Part shown: positions 2,960 to 8,727 of the stretch, piece after piece | Layout: each line of letters starts with the position of its first letter | Position numbering within the stretch: the first letter of the stretch is position 1 | Assembly: GCA_021731205.1 (NCBI GenBank) | Contig: JAKFXV010000170.1 | Coordinates: 1 to 10,722, forward strand | From: Nocardioides sp. | GTDB taxonomy: Bacteria; Actinomycetota; Actinomycetes; Propionibacteriales; Nocardioidaceae | Direction of reading: 5' to 3' | DNA length: 10,722 bases | Position numbers and translations under genes: made by a program | Notes under the pieces: model-generated | What the model saw: only the letters and a program-made list of their open reading frames with translations | Told to the model about the DNA's origin: nothing | The model's database searches: none

Positions 2960-4528
2960 TCACGCGGCGGTGAACGGGATCGAGTGCCAGCCCGTCGCCC
3001 CATCGGGTACGACGTCGCGCTCGACGCTGGTCTGCACGAGCCCGGTCTTGTCGGTGGCCCGGACCGCGACCCGGTGCTCGCCCGGTTCGACCTCGACGGA
3101 CGCGGCCCACTGGACCCAGGTGTCGTCGTGCGGCACCTCGCCGAGGTCGGCCGCGACCCATGGTCCGCCGTCGACGGACACGTCGACCGCCGAGATTCCG
3201 GTGTGTTGGGCCCAGGCGGAGCCCCCGATCCGCACCCGCCCGGCCGCTACCCGCGCGCCGCTGTCCGGCACGTCGATCCGCGACGCCATCTTCACCGGCG
3301 CCTGCTCGGACCAGCCGCGGGAGGTCCAGTAGGCCTCGAAGTCGTCGAAGTTGGTCACCTCGAGGTCGACCAGCCACTTGGTCGCCGACACGAAGCCGTA
3401 GAGCCCGGGCACGATCATCCGGACTGGGAAGCCGTGTTCGACGGGCAGCGGGTCGCCGTTCATGCCCAGCGCGAGCATCGCGCTGCGCTCGTCGGTGAGC
3501 GCGGCCAACGGCGTACCGCACGTCCAGCCGTCCGCCGAGGTCTGCAAGACGGCGTTCGCCCCCGGTCGTACGCCGGCCTCGGCGAGCAGGTCGGAGATCT
3601 TCACACCACTCCACCAGGCGTTGCCGATCAGGTCTCCACCCACTTCGTTCGACACGCAGTTCAGCGTGATCCAGGCCTCGGTGAGCTCGCGGTCGACCAG
3701 GTCCTGATAGCTCAGGTTCAGCTCGCGCTCGACCGCGCCGTGAATCCGCAGTGCATAGTCGTCCGGTGCGATCACGGGCACGGCGATGGCGGTGTGGATG
3801 AGGTAGAACTTCTCGTTCGACGTGCGCCACGGTGCGATGCCATCGACGCCGATCTTGGTGCCATCGGGCTGCACCGGCGGCGTGATCGGCAACTTGAGCA
3901 TCTCGCGAGCGGCCTGGACCCGGCCCCGGTCGCGGCTCAGCAACCCGCCCAGGCCGGTGGCCACCAGCGTGATTGCGCCGATCGCCCCGATCCGCACCAG
4001 GAAGCCCCGCCGGTTGAGGTCGCGGGTCGTCGCCAGCAGCGCGCTGGCCTCGGGGATGGCCTCGGCTCGTTCGACCGGGAGCTCATTGAGAGCGGCGGTA
4101 CGCCGCAGCGGCTCGGTCAGCACGTTGAGGGCGAGGATCCAGGTCACGAAGCCTGCGGCCACCGGCATCGAGCCGGTCGTCATGGTCGTGCCCGAGGTCA
4201 GCAGCGCAGCCAGTGCGGCGCCGCCCAGGGCCACGAAGATCGCCGCTGGTAGCCACGTCGATCGCCGCGCCAGCAGGCCGGCCGCCACGAACGACGCCAG
4301 CAGCCCGATCACCACCAGCGCCAGCAGCACCGTCTTGTTCCAGGAGCCCAACAGTCGGATCGCCGGTTCGACGACCGAACCTGGTGTAGCCCTGATGATG
4401 CTCTCCGACACCGCGACGATGGGCGACTCCCGGATGTTGAGCCCCGACGCGACCGCGTGGCTCACGGCCAGGCCGGCAAGGCCGGTCAGGACGCCTGCCG
4501 AGGCCCAGGCTCCGTGAGTCGTGCGCAT
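2960..4528 (-). CDS. Membrane-anchored molybdopterin-dependent oxidoreductase (sulfite oxidase family)
   Basis: 522 residues from the chosen ATG. The N-terminal part has four hydrophobic segments (about 8-26, 64-86, 92-111, 120-137). A twin-arginine RRGFL (Arg 173-174) then leads a fifth hydrophobic stretch (177-197), suggesting that the catalytic part is exported in folded form by Tat while the N-terminus stays in the membrane. The oxidoreductase molybdopterin-binding domain spans about 230-400, with the cofactor-ligand cysteine in TLNCVSNEVGG (C291) and GFPVRMIVPGLYG. A beta-rich Mo-co dimerisation domain follows (about 410-520). The substrate is unknown; sulfite or a sulfoxide is typical of the family. 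An upstream in-frame ATG at 4606 would add 26 polar residues and is less likely. TACATT six bases before 4528 suggests a leaderless start. The gene ends 61 bases before cysS and is divergent from ispF. Confidence 0.9.
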   Translation of the reverse strand: MRTTHGAWASAGVLTGLAGLAVSHAVASGLNIRESPIVAVSESIIRATPGSVVEPAIRLLGSWNKTVLLALVVIGLLASFVAAGLLARRSTWLPAAIFVALGGAALAALLTSGTTMTTGSMPVAAGFVTWILALNVLTEPLRRTAALNELPVERAEAIPEASALLATTRDLNRRGFLVRIGAIGAITLVATGLGGLLSRDRGRVQAAREMLKLPITPPVQPDGTKIGVDGIAPWRTSNEKFYLIHTAIAVPVIAPDDYALRIHGAVERELNLSYQDLVDRELTEAWITLNCVSNEVGGDLIGNAWWSGVKISDLLAEAGVRPGANAVLQTSADGWTCGTPLAALTDERSAMLALGMNGDPLPVEHGFPVRMIVPGLYGFVSATKWLVDLEVTNFDDFEAYWTSRGWSEQAPVKMASRIDVPDSGARVAAGRVRIGGSAWAQHTGISAVDVSVDGGPWVAADLGEVPHDDTWVQWAASVEVEPGEHRVAVRATDKTGLVQTSVERDVVPDGATGWHSIPFTAA

Positions 4529-4534
4529 CTTTCC

Positions 4535-4540
4535 AATGTA
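4535..4540 (-). promoter_or_regulatory. Probable -10 element for leaderless oxidoreductase mRNA
   Basis: On the minus strand TACATT is followed by GGAAAG and then ATG at 4528. The six-base gap matches the cysS promoter geometry. GGAAAG could also be read as a Shine-Dalgarno, but it abuts the ATG with no spacer and so would work poorly. The -35 region is weak (GTTCCG at about 17 bases). Confidence 0.45.
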
Positions 4541-4670
4541 CCCGCGCCGGTCCGCCTCGGAACCCGGCGCCGCTGCCGTCAGCAGTCCGTAAGGTCTGCC
4601 GCGCACGGCGCCCGCCGCCGGAGAGGCCTTGAGGTGCGCGTCGACACCCGATGTCGGGCATCATGAGGCC

Positions 4671-5159
4671 GTGACCGCGACCCCGATGCCCCGCGTCGGC
4701 CTCGGTGTCGACGTGCATCGACTCGAGATGGGGGTGCCCCTCCACCTGGCGGGCCTCGCCTGGCCCGACGAGCCGATGGGGCTGGTGGGGCACTCCGACG
4801 GAGATGTCGCTGCTCACGCGGCGGTCGACGCCTTGCTGTGCGCCGCAGGGCTGGGCGACATCGGGAGCACCTTCGGGACCGCGGATCCCACTCGGGCCGG
4901 GGCCTCGGGAGTGGACTTCCTGGCCGAGACGGCCGCGCTGGTGCGGCGGGCCGGCTATGAGATCGGCAACGTGACCATCACCGTGGTCGGCAACTCCCCC
5001 CGGATCGCTGCCCGCCGAGCGGAGGCGGAGGCGGTGCTGTCCGCCGCGATCGGCGCGCCCGTCACTCTCGCGGCCACCACCACCGACGGGCTAGGCCTGA
5101 CCGGCCGTGGCGAAGGCATCGCCGCGACCTCCGTGGCCGTGATCCTGCAACGCGACTGA
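4671..5159 (+). CDS. ispF: 2-C-methyl-D-erythritol 2,4-cyclodiphosphate synthase
   Basis: 162 residues from GTG 4671. IspF cyclises CDP-methylerythritol 2-phosphate, releasing CMP, in the MEP isoprenoid pathway; it is a trimer with a divalent metal. Seen: metal ligands D14 and H16 in GVDVH, and H49 in HSDGDVAAH; the substrate loop HSDGD (41-45); [13 protein letters not shown]; and the closing [15 protein letters not shown] signature. The start is uncertain. GTG 4671 has GAGG only two bases away and a weak CATCAT six bases upstream, while ATG 4686 (157 residues, [11 protein letters not shown]) has no ribosome binding site. A TANNNT word (TAAGGT, 4590-4595) is another possible promoter. The gene normally follows ispD downstream of carD; here ispD is absent and ispF faces the other way. 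Its last 69 bases overlap the antisense 3' end of the chelatase gene. Confidence 0.95.
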
Positions 5160-5819
5160 CTCGGCGTAGCGCGCCACCACGAGGTCGACGACGTGTCGGT
5201 GCACCCCGAGGACGTCAGCCACGACGGACGCGCCCGCCGCCCTCGCCTCGGCATGCGCACGCCGGGCGAAGTGTCCGGGCGCCAAGAGGTACGGCACCAC
5301 TGCCACCCGGCCGTCGCGCCGAGCCTGACCGACCTGCTCGACCACACCGGGTCCCGGTCCGGACAGCGTGGCCAACCGGACCGGCCCGCCCCACTCCCGG
5401 TCCAGCAGCGCGCACGCTTGCCTGAGATCCTCGGCTCCGACCGGGTCACGGGTGCCGGCCGCCAACACCACCACCGGATCACCCAACTCGGCGCCGGCCT
5501 CGAAGAGCCGGGTTCGCAACGCCCGCGCCAGGGCGGGGTCCGGGCCGAGCGGAGGCGCGAGCCGGGCCGAACCCGACGCGAGCGCGACGGCGGCCGGCAG
5601 ATCTTGGCGCACGTGGAATCCGGTCGAGAGCAGCAGCGGCACGACCACGCTCGGGCGGTCGTCCAGCCGCAGTTGGTCCGCGAGCAGCGGTTCGCTGAGT
5701 TCGACGTACGTCGTGACGGCCGGCACGCCCAGCGCCTCCCCTGCTGCCCGAGTGATGTCCGTCGCCACGCCTGTGCCCGACTGGTCCCTGGTGCCGTGGG
5801 CCACGGTCACGAGCACCAT
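5091..5819 (-). CDS. Sirohydrochlorin chelatase (CbiX/SirB family)
   Basis: 242 residues with two CbiX repeats. The family inserts Fe2+ (siroheme) or Co2+ (cobalamin) into sirohydrochlorin; Fe is inferred here from the nitrite-reductase context. The first repeat has the metal-binding pair, H8 in VTVAHGTRD and H69 in [11 protein letters not shown]. In the second repeat the first histidine is replaced (LAAGTRDP, A121), while [13 protein letters not shown] is kept, so it is partly degenerate as is usual in two-domain members. The ATG overlaps the upstream stop as TAATG, giving translational coupling with no clear Shine-Dalgarno. The recognisable domain ends near VARYAE (about 220). Residues 221-242 and the stop are read entirely from the antisense of the ispF 3' end, a tail that looks acquired by running past the ancestral stop. 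Confidence 0.9.
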
Positions 5820-6991
5820 TAGAGGCTCAACCGGTAGCCACGCTTCACCACCGTCTGCACCAGCCGGGTGCCGATCGCGGCGCGAAGGCGGGCCACGGCC
5901 ATCTCGACGGCGTGCTCGGAGCCGGCCGTCCCACTGGGCAACGCCCCGAGGAGCTCCTTGCGCGAGACCACATGTCCGGGATTCACCGCGAGCGCATGCA
6001 GGACCGCCAGCGGCGCCGGCGAGAGCGCCACCTCTGCCCCGTCGACCAGCACCGAGTCGCCGTGCAGGACCACCCGGTGACCGGCCGTCTCGATGACCAC
6101 CCCACGGCGGCGTGAGGGCAGCTCGGTCTCGAGTTGCTTGACCATGGCAGCAAGTCGCGACCGCTCGGGCTGCATGGTCGGCACGCCCCACATCTCGAAG
6201 GCCGCAGCGGTCACCGGTCCGACACACGAGGCGACCACGTCAGCCTGGAACGCCGAGATCACCTCGTCGCGGCGTCCGGCCACGGCGGCGGCCTCCATCA
6301 GGGCGGCGACCGCAGGGGCGGCGGTGAACGTCACCGCGTCGAGCTCGCGCTTCGCGATCAGCTCGACCATCCGGAACAACGGCTCGGGGTCGTCGGCACC
6401 CGCAATGCGATACACCGTCACGACGGACACGTCCGCCCCCTGGCGGCGCAACGCGTGGGCGACCATCGACAGCGACTGCCCGTGTTCTTGCACGACCACG
6501 CGTACGCCGTGCAGGTCGCGGCCGCGCAGGTAGGCCAGCACGTCCTCGAAGCACTCCGACTCCGCCGACCACAGTTCGCGCAGGCCACGTCGACGCAGCG
6601 CACCCACCGACTTGGGCCCGCGAGCCAGGATCTCCGAACCGGCCAGCACCTCCAGCAACCGGTCCAGCAACCCCCAGCCCTCGGCCGCCGCGAACCACGA
6701 CTTGATCCCGATCCCCGTCGTGGCCACGAAGATGTCGATCGGAGCGGTGAGCAAGCGCTCGGTCTCGGCGCGCAGCGCCGCCTCGTCGATCTGGCGCGGG
6801 TCGACCGACAGTGCGGGCGCCCACTCGACCTCGGCACCACGGCGGACCAGCAGACCCACCTGCTCGGTGACCTTGCGCGCTGCGGTGACCCCGATCCGGA
6901 AGCCGGTCAGCGGCCCCGGCTCGGTCGAGAGCTGGTCGGACGCGGCGGGCGAGTCGATCGGCCGGGCGATGTCGACCGTCACTCCCGTCAT
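5819..6991 (-). CDS. Uroporphyrinogen-III synthase fused to a winged-helix DNA-binding domain
   Basis: 390 residues. Residues about 28-285 have the HemD two-lobe fold pattern (GFRIGVTAARK; FVATTGIGIKSWF; GPKSVGALRRRG; VVVQEHGQSLSMV; AVTFTAAPAVAALMEAA; VASCVGPVTAAAFEMWG). Residues about 300-390 form an OmpR/PhoB-type winged helix (LSPAPLAVLHALAVNPGHVVSRKELLGALP, then VEMAVARLRAAIG and VVKRGYRLSL). This fusion is known in actinobacteria, for example next to siroheme and nitrate genes in mycobacteria. It is thought to regulate nitrite/siroheme genes; whether it also closes uroporphyrinogen III is uncertain. The ATG at 6991 overlaps the nirD stop as ATGA. The frame is open upstream to 7321, but that part is a shadow of nirD. 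Ends in TAATG with the chelatase gene. Confidence 0.9.
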   Translation of the reverse strand: MTGVTVDIARPIDSPAASDQLSTEPGPLTGFRIGVTAARKVTEQVGLLVRRGAEVEWAPALSVDPRQIDEAALRAETERLLTAPIDIFVATTGIGIKSWFAAAEGWGLLDRLLEVLAGSEILARGPKSVGALRRRGLRELWSAESECFEDVLAYLRGRDLHGVRVVVQEHGQSLSMVAHALRRQGADVSVVTVYRIAGADDPEPLFRMVELIAKRELDAVTFTAAPAVAALMEAAAVAGRRDEVISAFQADVVASCVGPVTAAAFEMWGVPTMQPERSRLAAMVKQLETELPSRRRGVVIETAGHRVVLHGDSVLVDGAEVALSPAPLAVLHALAVNPGHVVSRKELLGALPSGTAGSEHAVEMAVARLRAAIGTRLVQTVVKRGYRLSL

Positions 6992-7353
6992 GTCGCGACG
7001 CCTCGCTTGCGGCCCACCTCGATGATCCCGTCCGTCACCCGGACGTCGTACGACGGCACCCGGACCTGCTTGTCGTCCAGGCACTGTCCGGTGCGCAGAT
7101 CGAAGGCCTGCTTGTGCATCGGCGAGGCCACGAACGGAGCGCCACCCCGGGTGCCGACGATGCCGCGAGCCAGCACCGACGCCCGCGCGAACGGATCGTG
7201 GTTCCCGAGTGCGTAGACCTGGCCGTCCTCGGTGCGGAAGATCGCGATCGCGCGCCCATGGACCAGCGCCGCGACCCCGCGCTCGACCTCGACGGCGTCC
7301 AGCGGACACACCGCCTCCCACTCAGCACTGCTCGACTGCGCGCGTTCGGTCAC
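6988..7353 (-). CDS. nirD: Nitrite reductase (NAD(P)H) small subunit NirD
   Basis: 121 residues, usual NirD length. NirD has a Rieske-like fold and partners NirB in assimilatory reduction of nitrite to ammonia in the cytoplasm. Seen: AIFRTEDGQVYALGNHDPF, GIVGTRGGAPFVASPMHKQAFDL, TGQCLDD and VRVPSYDVRVTDGIIEV. Where true Rieske proteins have CxH and CxxH, this has NH (N51-H52) and SPMH (77-80). No [2Fe-2S] cluster is therefore expected, as in other NirD subunits. The start is GTG 7353, overlapping the upstream TGA as GTGA, with a G-rich tract (GGGGG) four bases before it. Its natural partner NirB is only a fragment here, so NirD may be without a function or may serve a NirB encoded elsewhere. 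Confidence 0.93.
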   Translation of the reverse strand: MTERAQSSSAEWEAVCPLDAVEVERGVAALVHGRAIAIFRTEDGQVYALGNHDPFARASVLARGIVGTRGGAPFVASPMHKQAFDLRTGQCLDDKQVRVPSYDVRVTDGIIEVGRKRGVAT

Positions 7354-7865
7354 GGCGCCCCCACGGGGATCGAAAGGCCGAGCTGCCCCAGGGTCGGCGT
7401 CACTCCGAGCACGGCGGGCTCCGCGGACACCTCGGGTGCGATCTGGCCGCGCTCGTCGACCACGAACCGGATGTTGGGATCCGGCACACCGGGCGCGTTG
7501 ACGAACGACACGAAACGACCGAGCTTCTCCGGGTCATCGAGGGTCGCGCGCCACTCGTCGAAGTACCCACCCACGTGCCGCGCCATCTCGGCTTCGAGCT
7601 CCGCGCCCAGGCCGAGCGCATCGTCCACGACCACCTCACGCACCCGCTCCAGGCCGCCCCACATCGCCCGGGTCTCCTGACCCAGCACGTGCCCGTTGTG
7701 GAGGCTGGCGAGGATCGAGGCGATCTCAGGCTTGCAGTTGTCGCAGCCGCGGCCGTGGCTCTCGACGATCTCATCGAACCGGCGGTAGCCGTGGACCGCG
7801 ACGACCTCGAACAGCTCTTGCCGGGAGAGCGCACCTCGGTGCCTGGCGTGGGAAGCCTCGATCAT
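7350..7865 (-). CDS. NirB remnant: N-terminally truncated and internally deleted nitrite reductase large subunit
   Basis: 171 residues against about 800-850 for NirB. Residues 13-63 match the second [2Fe-2S]/BFD-like region of actinobacterial NirB (LSRQELFEVV, then GRGCDNCKPEIASILASL with C41 and C44). Residues about 69-150 match its extreme C-terminus (GGLERVREVVVDDALGLGAE, EWRATLDDPEKLGRFVSFVN, ERGQIAP). The FAD/NAD part and first cluster domain are missing. So is the whole siroheme/[4Fe-4S] catalytic region that should lie between these blocks; the join is near residues 64-70 and keeps the frame. The start ATG 7865 has a strong Shine-Dalgarno (AAAGGA, six bases away), and the stop overlaps the nirD GTG, so translation is likely. 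It cannot reduce nitrite. Could be a decaying pseudogene or a retained small NirD-binding or Fe-S protein. Confidence 0.8.
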   Translation of the reverse strand: MIEASHARHRGALSRQELFEVVAVHGYRRFDEIVESHGRGCDNCKPEIASILASLHNGHVLGQETRAMWGGLERVREVVVDDALGLGAELEAEMARHVGGYFDEWRATLDDPEKLGRFVSFVNAPGVPDPNIRFVVDERGQIAPEVSAEPAVLGVTPTLGQLGLSIPVGAP

Positions 7866-7871
7866 CTGATG

Positions 7872-7877
7872 TCCTTT
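7872..7877 (-). promoter_or_regulatory. Shine-Dalgarno of the NirB remnant
   Basis: AAAGGA on the minus strand, six bases before ATG 7865. It fixes the start of the shortened NirB product and shows that the truncation did not remove the translation signal. Confidence 0.75.
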
Positions 7878-7887
7878 CGGTGGGCCG

Positions 7888-7893
7888 AACCTA
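7888..7893 (-). promoter_or_regulatory. Possible -10 element of the nir operon
   Basis: TAGGTT (TANNNT) on the minus strand, 22 bases upstream of ATG 7865, leaving a leader of about 16 bases that holds the Shine-Dalgarno. No -35 hexamer is seen at 16-18 bases, which would suit an activator-dependent promoter. Pattern-only evidence. Confidence 0.35.
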
Positions 7894-7914
7894 GGCCGGT
7901 CGTGTTGAGCGGGC

Positions 7915-7946
7915 GTTTCGGCATGTAACAGCCGTGCTAACGGCTG
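7915..7946 (-). promoter_or_regulatory. Candidate operator: GlnR-like words and a 7-bp perfect dyad
   Basis: Read on the minus strand, GTTAG, GTTAC and GAAAC (forward 7937-7941, 7925-7929, 7915-7919) are spaced 12 and 10 bases. That is close to, but not exactly, the 11-base period of GlnR boxes (GTnAC-n6-GnAAC). Overlapping them, CAGCCGT-GCTA-ACGGCTG (7929-7946) is a perfect inverted repeat with a 7-bp arm. The position just upstream of the putative nir -10 suits an activator or repressor of nitrite genes. The regulator is inferred, not shown. Confidence 0.35.
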
Positions 7947-8055
7947 CTCACGGGTTGCTGGGGTGCCGGCGCGGCACCACCAGGTCGGCTCCAGCACGAG
8001 GCCGTGGTCGAGCCGGGGCCGCGCCCGTAAAGGCGAACGGCCCGGACGCCGGTGT

Positions 8056-8115
8056 CGAAAAGACCCGAACCACCCGACCCGGCTCGAAAACACACAGAAC
8101 CACCCCGACCCGGCT
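8056..8115. repeat. Two degenerate tandem units of 29 and 31 bp
   Basis: CGAAAAGACCCGAACCACCC continuing to CGACCCGGCT (8056-8084) is followed at once by a second unit beginning CGAAAACACACAGAACC and ending CGACCCGGCT (8085-8115). A partial third unit (TGAATGCACAG) follows. The shared word GACCCGGCT reappears inverted at 8199-8206 and 8230-8237 near the carD stop. No gene is seen in 7947-8241. Confidence 0.75.
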
Positions 8116-8206
8116 TGAATGCACAGGGGCGATCTTCGAGAACGGTGCCGAAATGACGTACCCGCAGCCTCAACAAGGCTGCGGGTACGTCATTTCAAGC
8201 CGGGTC
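8107..8206. repeat. Outer 13-bp inverted repeat enclosing the hairpin
   Basis: GACCCGGCTTGAA at 8107-8119 is perfectly complementary to TTCAAGCCGGGTC at 8194-8206. Its right arm overlaps the last three bases of the 21-bp hairpin arm, so the two stems are mutually exclusive at that end. This could be an alternative fold or the result of repeat insertion. Confidence 0.8.
8150..8196. terminator. Perfect 21-bp hairpin downstream of carD
   Basis: The left arm 8150-8170 (GAAATGACGTACCCGC...) is exactly complementary to the right arm 8176-8196 around a five-base loop, CAACA. It lies 46 bases past the carD stop and upstream of the nir operon, which runs in the same direction. Neither strand has a long T-run after the stem, so this would be a U-tract-poor terminator of the sort proposed for actinobacteria. 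Alternatively it may be a protein-binding palindrome or a small mobile or REP-like element. Confidence 0.6.
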
Positions 8207-8242
8207 AGCGCGAAACTTTGTGTCTTCGCGCCGGGTCAGCGC
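8199..8242. repeat. Direct repeat GCCGGGTCAGCGC abutting the carD stop
   Basis: The 13-mer occurs at 8199-8211 and 8230-8242, 31 bases apart, which is the unit length seen at 8085-8115. The second copy runs into the carD stop codon (8242-8244). Read in the carD direction, TAG is followed by CGCTGACCCGGC, giving a second in-frame stop, TGA, two codons on. Confidence 0.85.
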
Positions 8243-8727
8243 TAGGAGGCGAGCACCTCGTCGAGGATGGCTTCGGCCTTCTCCTCCTCGGTGTGCTCGG
8301 CCAGGGCCAGCTCGGAGACCAGGATCTGCCGGGCCTTGGCCAGCATCCTCTTCTCGCCGGCGGACAGGCCGCGATCGCGCTCACGGCGCCACAGATCGCG
8401 CACGACCTCGGCCACCTTCATCACGTCGCCGCTGTGCAGTTTCTCAAGGTTGGCCTTGTATCGGCGCGACCAGTTCGTGGGCTCCTCGACGTGCGCCGCG
8501 CGGAGTACGTCGAAGACCCGGTCGAGGCCGGCCTTGTCCACGACATCGCGCACGCCGACCAGGTCGAGGTTGCACGAAGGGACCCGCACGACCAGGTCCT
8601 GTTGGGAGACGATGCGCAAGACGAGGTATTCACGGTCCTCACCTTTGATGGTCCGCATCTCGATCTCTTCGATGACAGCAGCCCCGTGATTTGGGTAGAC
8701 AACCGTTTCGCCGACGGTAAAGCTCAT
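8242..8727 (-). CDS. carD: CarD family transcriptional regulator
   Basis: 161 residues, full length. CarD binds RNA polymerase beta subunit and the upstream edge of the -10 region, stabilising open complexes, chiefly at rRNA and housekeeping promoters. Residues 1-55 form the RNA-polymerase-interaction domain ([35 protein letters not shown]). The helical DNA-binding domain follows, with the highly conserved [17 protein letters not shown], including the wedge tryptophan (W86), then [22 protein letters not shown] and a C-terminal LDEVLAS. The ATG at 8727 is preceded by AAGGGG ten bases upstream, and by a strong extended -10 box. It is divergent from the lipoprotein gene, as with lpqE/carD in mycobacteria. 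The usual downstream neighbour ispD is not present; repeats and the nir operon follow. Confidence 0.97.

Follow-up and report, generated by a model that had tools for sequence, protein, structure and literature searches.

The locus described here raises the question of how two distant parts of the nitrite reductase NirB came to be joined in a single reading frame, and what, if anything, keeps that frame open. The window, that is the whole stretch of DNA analysed, is an entire contig of 10,722 bases (C33) from a Nocardioides genome of 2.09 Mb that is 84% complete and divided over 350 contigs. Translation of minus-strand positions 7865-7350 yields 171 residues and a stop, without an internal stop (Table 1), and the product represents the second Fe-S half-module of NirB fused in frame to the C-terminal segment, with approximately 490 N-terminal and approximately 210 internal (siroheme) residues being absent. 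The joining of two NirB blocks at this position, which had been predicted from the DNA alone, was thus borne out, as both blocks were matched in 11 of 11 relatives, residues ~12-68 at 52-78% identity and residues ~67-171 at 65-72%. The best match of the relic other than itself in the protein database had an E value of 1.3e-38, and chance resemblance to NirB is excluded. In the NirB proteins of the 11 relatives the two retained blocks lie 207-216 residues apart (residues 526-580 and 791-883 in that of locus L042), while the predicted loss of the N-terminal FAD/NAD part amounts to 484-506 residues, measured in 10 relatives from the N-terminal FAD motif to the first retained block. Alignment to full-length NirB placed the two junctions at residues 1-11 and 65-69. 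The original prediction of an excised siroheme domain held insofar as that region is gone, but was too narrow: the NirB N-terminus with its first Fe-S motif has been lost too, and from the rest of the locus narK, nasC and the greater part of the FAD reductase gene.

Table 1. Positions of the nirB relic, its parts and its neighbours in the window.
Feature	Position	Strand	Basis or remark
carD, upstream neighbour	8242..8727	-	ORF position and synteny of relatives
31-bp-spaced repeat copies between carD and scrap, inverted around a perfect 21-bp hairpin (8150-8170/8176-8196)	8073..8245		
FAD-dependent reductase scrap, frameshifted; gene upstream of nirB in syntenic relatives	7965..8058	-	DNA match
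Native nirB leader	7866..7955	-	Aligned with nirB leaders of relatives
Leader elements	GTGAG 7951-7947; GTTAGC..GTTAC..GAAAC box 7941-7915; CAACA; TAGGTT 7893-7888		
Shine-Dalgarno GAAAGGAC	7878-7871	-	5 nt upstream of relic ATG
nirB relic, 171 codons and stop	7350..7865	-	Translation, alignment, profile search
Relic residues 1-11 (junction 1), position of nirB start codon	7833..7865	-	No counterpart in relatives
Relic residues 12-64, second Fe-S half-module with GCDNC, 2 residues deleted	7674..7832	-	Alignment
Junction 2, residues 65-69 TRAMW, ~210 NirB residues missing	7659..7673	-	Alignment
Relic residues 70-171, NirB C-terminal segment	7353..7658	-	Alignment
nirD, intact; start inside relic stop (GTGA)	6988..7353	-	Profile search, overlap
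nnaR-type HemD and winged-helix regulator, intact; ATGA overlap with nirD	5819..6991	-	Profile search
cbiX/sirB-like sirohydrochlorin chelatase; TAATG overlap with nnaR	5091..5819	-	Matches below cut-off

The retained parts of NirB are not those that would make an enzyme. The N-terminal FAD/NAD domain and the first Fe-S motif are absent, and so are, from all 171 residues, the cysteines of SCVG..WC and GCARECAE in the relatives, which we take to be the siroheme/[4Fe-4S] cysteines; the protein is no nitrite reductase, and any catalytic role is improbable. Within the HG[xG]RGCDxCKP motif two residues are deleted, Asn and Glu stand where 39 aligned relatives have I/V/L and A/V/T (the motif alignment comprises 39 of 40 loci, the pattern being absent from L093), the cysteine of the C[EQ]HF motif is lost, and the entire relic contains 2 Cys. 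Owing to the presence of just two cysteines and the absence of a catalytic domain, an enzyme or a self-contained Fe-S carrier is unlikely, and the Fe-S carrier originally put forward as one option is disfavoured, the motif being damaged as well. An AlphaFold2 model built with 15 sequences was mainly helical, with a long helix at residues 87-110, and its poor scores (mean pLDDT 57, pTM 0.31) lead us to draw no claim of a stable or independent fold. Among solved structures the relic had two weak matches, with E values of 0.068 and 0.88; a full-length NirB was absent from the best 60 of 156 solved-structure matches. The tail of the relic (7353-7430) carries approximately 9 extra in-frame residues, in the TLGQLGLS region, that are absent from the 39 aligned relatives.

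In syntenic relatives the gene order is carD-narK-nasC-FAD reductase-nirB-nirD-nnaR, followed by ispF on the opposite strand, with complete synteny through ispF read in L079, L089, L091 and L093, and lost genes apart the window has the same order. Only 376 bases separate carD from the relic, and the locus has neither narK nor nasC; of the FAD reductase gene it retains no more than a frameshifted scrap, and nirB is short of two large parts. The scrap is 72-74% identical to the FAD reductase gene over 87-88 nt (L078, L086 and L089; best E 2e-6). nirB is not at the carD locus in every relative, as ispF and cysS adjoin it in 4 of 11 relative loci (L042, L047, L049 and L052) and not in the other 7. 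A gene at 2960-4606, related to SorA/SoxC-like molybdenum sulfite dehydrogenases with a score below the cut-off, adjoins ispF in relatives too. A complete nirB or nasC was also sought in the remainder of the 84%-complete genome; no match there exceeded the TIGR02374 cut-off, and the best nasC match, a NasC-like gene on contig C136, was rejected as an orthologue, its identity being only 33% as compared to 73-89% between relatives. For narK no match was obtained in the genome, in a search without a control whose empty answer alone proves little. One gene of the genome scored over the NIR_SIR cut-off, a Sir-like gene on contig C100 that is cut by the contig end. Since this gene was present in each of the 17 relatives tested, with an identity of 71-80%, and 4 of these have no nirB, it looks like a core gene and not a replacement, and a substitute nitrite reductase elsewhere in the genome was discarded on this account.

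The region upstream of the relic (7866-7955) could be aligned to the nirB leaders of 11 relatives, over almost its entire length in the case of L094, and because the alignment takes in a -10-like box and extends to the Shine-Dalgarno sequence and the ATG, the start of the relic is that of nirB itself; no other gene from which the start could have been borrowed was found. Among 20 scanned loci a nirB start was located in 17, 5 of which (L044, L045, L046, L048 and L050) have no such leader because nirB closely trails the upstream gene, while the similar leader of L051 falls outside the alignment of 11. The Shine-Dalgarno comparison draws on 7 of these 11 leaders, as in L076, L077, L086 and L097 the start lies directly behind the -10-like box. 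A sigma-70 scan of 7866-7955 gave no match, and it is the conservation of the leader that suggests a nirB promoter has been retained ahead of the relic. Binding of GlnR/NnaR may be proposed from the likeness to relatives and from the GTGAG half-site, which resembles the NnaR motif given in PMC6277429. At the other end, nirB', nirD, nnaR and cbiX overlap at 3 of 3 junctions; a 4-nt nirB/nirD overlap was found in 8 of 15 relatives, the start pattern not being found in 5 and 2 having no entry. The predicted Shine-Dalgarno sequence and GTGA overlap are both present, as is, judged by conservation, the promoter, and by its sequence the relic combines an upstream promoter with an overlap of the downstream start, as a coupling cistron should.

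We lean towards the view that the relic was left behind when the nitrate/nitrite assimilation block as a whole was lost step by step, and that it was passively kept as a promoter-proximal translation-coupling cistron. Among the options first suggested, a coupling cistron through which expression of nirD and of the regulator is maintained would fit best, because the leader appears to be the native nirB promoter and all three downstream junctions overlap; judged from this arrangement of the DNA, a coupling role is likely, and a recent double deletion, also suggested at the outset, fits too. The missing narK and nasC, the greater part of the FAD reductase gene and two parts of nirB would have gone in steps from an otherwise syntenic locus, leaving the relic to be transcribed from the old nitrogen-regulated nirB promoter, and ribosomes translating it would hand translation on to nirD, nnaR and cbiX. 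The chain would be useful mainly through cbiX/sirB, which would make siroheme for the remaining sulfite reductase; loss of the nirB leader or frame would starve nnaR and cbiX, assuming that cbiX depends on the nirB promoter, and frame-keeping deletions would be tolerated. In favour of this explanation, the Shine-Dalgarno sequence, start, stop and nirD overlap of nirB are kept, as is, judged by conservation, its promoter, and nirD, nnaR and cbiX are intact. In Mycobacterium abscessus, according to PMC11162112, narK3-nirBD-nnaR-sirB forms a single transcript with overlapping frames and SirB serves both nitrite and sulfite reductases with siroheme; the same text reports that deletion of nnaR raises sirB expression, which, in the view of its authors, does not agree with the shared transcript being the sole source of expression, and sirB may there be under further control. 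PMC6277429 describes binding of M. smegmatis NnaR to the nirB and narK promoters.

Several points speak against a passively kept coupling cistron. The in-frame survival of two large deletions and of small indels could be due to luck and to ascertainment, an open frame having been picked. Furthermore, a cbiX gene behind nnaR was present in just 4 of the 15 relatives inspected, and the C half of the relic, with 0 of 86 invariant positions changed, is more conserved than a pure leader cistron would need. In favour of the coupling cistron, a shifted reading would terminate at nt 92-329 in one alternative frame and at nt 463 or 541 in the second, and in neither case at the start of nirD (512); against it, a shift into the former frame beyond nt 329 would meet no stop in the 875 nt read, such that some frameshifts would not terminate early.

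Decay and constraint were compared at codon positions 1 and 2 that are invariant among 14 relatives, those covering more than 80% of a gene numbering 14, 14, 10, 14, 9 and 8 of the 14; for the scrap 13 relatives were used, L097 having been left out as it matched a paralogous NirB domain. The Fe-S half had 6 of 73 such positions changed, and the own-genome baseline of nirD, nnaR, cysS and carD had 45 of 1498. In the scrap, 38 sites were invariant in the 13 relatives, of which 2 were gapped and 7 of the remaining 36 changed, as compared to 0-2 changed sites when each of those 13 relatives was left out singly. Fisher's tests, several in number and all on small counts, returned P 0.008 for the Fe-S half versus the C half, P 0.03 for the Fe-S half above the baseline, P ~0.08 for the C half below the baseline and P 0.0001 for the scrap versus the C half. 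The excess in the Fe-S half would be expected of a plain early pseudogene, hit by recent deletions, without function and open merely for lack of time, as would the two-residue deletion and the I to N and A to E type changes in its motif, a third-position GC of 0.89 that is like that of the neighbours (0.85-0.90), and the occurrence in a single genome among the matches listed. The claim of a relaxed Fe-S half is, however, weakened by the finding that ispF and carD diverge as much from kin (excess divergence ratios, among relatives covering at least 85%, of 1.81 for ispF, 1.77 for carD and 1.77 for the Fe-S half); for single relatives left out in turn the changed fraction goes up to 0.064 (Fe-S half) and 0.102 (nnaR), such that the 0.082 of the Fe-S half of the relic is high but not unique. 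We regard such a pseudogene as unlikely, as the scrap has acquired several frameshifting indels in approximately 100 nt where the 513-nt relic, in one alignment, has none, and as the Shine-Dalgarno sequence and overlap are kept and, judged by conservation, the promoter as well. The relic shows no frameshift or premature stop, and the dN/dS of its C half, in which time before the deletion is included, is not near 1.

A further possibility, which we consider rather doubtful, is that a small protein has been retained, selection acting on the C-terminal segment and perhaps also on the Fe-S half-module, for example as a NirD-binding or assembly partner. In agreement with this, NirD is intact, and the count of changed positions in the C half lies below those of the baseline, the Fe-S half and the scrap. 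Pairwise comparison of the C half to 7 relatives, which includes the time before the deletion, gave dN 0.09-0.15, dS 0.87-1.29 and dN/dS ~0.09-0.17, the dN being within the range between relatives (dN 0.03-0.16, dS 0.26-1.01). The lineage has a long synonymous branch without extra amino-acid change in the C half, which renders a long-dead C half unlikely. However, should the deletion be recent, constraint that predates it would account for these figures equally, and the C-half values are consistent with recent deletion and continued selection alike; the NirD partner originally suggested keeps a small likelihood in that the C half shows no loss of constraint. Moreover, just two cysteines are left, the poor structural model lends no support to an independent fold, and the joined form was found in no other genome or protein among the matches listed. 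Decidedly doubtful in our view is the more specific proposal of a C-terminal NirB mini-subunit, without a redox centre of its own, selected as a NirD partner in a lineage that has given up nitrite reduction, NirD then having a second role independent of that reaction; selection of the C half as a protein, if true, would show NirD use outside nitrite reduction. A NirD-like gene between carD and ispF, with no nirB or nnaR beside it, was observed in 6 of 6 loci chosen for a NirD match near carD (L080-L085, of genomes G050, G002, G029, G036, G010 and G025), and for three of these genomes (G002, G029 and G036) the search for NirB gave no match. In the two of these loci that were read (L081 and L082) a gene that is presumably ispD-like lies between the NirD-like gene and carD. 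The stand-alone NirD-like genes hint at a NirD-type role outside nitrite reduction.

That an intact nirB was collapsed or chimerically joined during assembly or binning, for which the fragmentation of the genome into 350 contigs and the single instance in the database might speak, is very improbable, as the longest exact repeats flanking the junctions, measured in 10 stand-in relatives, span 6-9 nt at junction 1 and 6-11 nt at junction 2, too short for k-mer collapse, the extra changes in the Fe-S motif and the decayed scrap alongside argue for real deletions, and gene order is otherwise that of syntenic relatives. A repeat with the core TTTCGCGCCGGGTCAGCGC and a 31-bp spacing, some clusters of which face each other around a hairpin (window 8073-8245; L129-L136), may have helped the deletion, because it abuts the carD stop and adjoins the scrap. 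Its 18 matches are spread over 9 contigs of this genome; among the candidates scored in each of 57 other genomes, none reached E<=0.001.

The relic query was matched in 70 of 96 genomes and in 157 of 215 genomes of the genus, its own counted in both. Among the matches listed for the 215 genus genomes, residues 1-171 were covered in one piece only by the genome itself, and the joined form occurred in none of 119 other proteins among the matches listed (120 of 161); the same 171-residue form, which had been looked for in relatives, was therefore not encountered there. Other listed proteins covered at most 61% of the relic, with the exception of P0090 (74%), which is without the Fe-S half. The closest NirB found, that of L096, is 83% identical in the C half and keeps the catalytic residues from approximately residue 663, where its contig starts. 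No genome of the same species was found; the best 10 of 18 papers on Nocardioides nirB, nitrate assimilation and gene loss included none on this subject by title, and for truncated, disrupted or deleted nirB one paper was retrieved (PMC12688703). In a Nocardioides MAG, a contig of 11,499 bases carries a NirB C-terminus of 126 residues (P0008) with another internal gap (GGNGG near RLQRT), which is possibly a second decaying nirB. The locus represents a real, if rather ordinary, operon relic in which everything between the promoter and the overlap is neatly preserved, and offers a clear snapshot of the decay of a coupled operon: the upstream gene dies by frameshifts, whereas the leading gene of the coupled chain undergoes in-frame shortening and retains its promoter, start and overlap. 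Counts of nirB by its C-terminus would score the relic as a nitrite reductase, which it cannot be.

When compared with known systems, the relic resembles NirB (TIGR02374, NF011565) in that residues 12-68 and 70-171 are homologous and that operon position and leader are those of nirB, but it differs by the absence of the FAD/NAD domain, the first Fe-S motif and the siroheme/[4Fe-4S] domain, and it scores below both cut-offs (57.4 bits against 578 for TIGR02374 and 89.9 bits against 883 for PRK14989, NF011565). BFD-like [2Fe-2S] proteins have four cysteines; residues 27-53 of the relic match the corresponding Pfam family (Fer2_BFD, PF04324) weakly, at 13.4 bits against a cut-off of 26, and the relic has two cysteines. 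Partial nirB frames in other Nocardioides assemblies, such as the 126-residue P0008, are similar in having a shortened C-terminus and an internal gap, but the break points of the relic differ and P0008 is without the Fe-S half. Finally, the order nirB-nirD-nnaR-sirB and the overlapping frames are those of the actinobacterial narK-nirBD-nnaR-sirB operon, as described in PMC11162112 and PMC6277429, from which the present locus differs in having neither narK nor the catalytic parts of nirB, with a 171-codon relic standing in the place of nirB.
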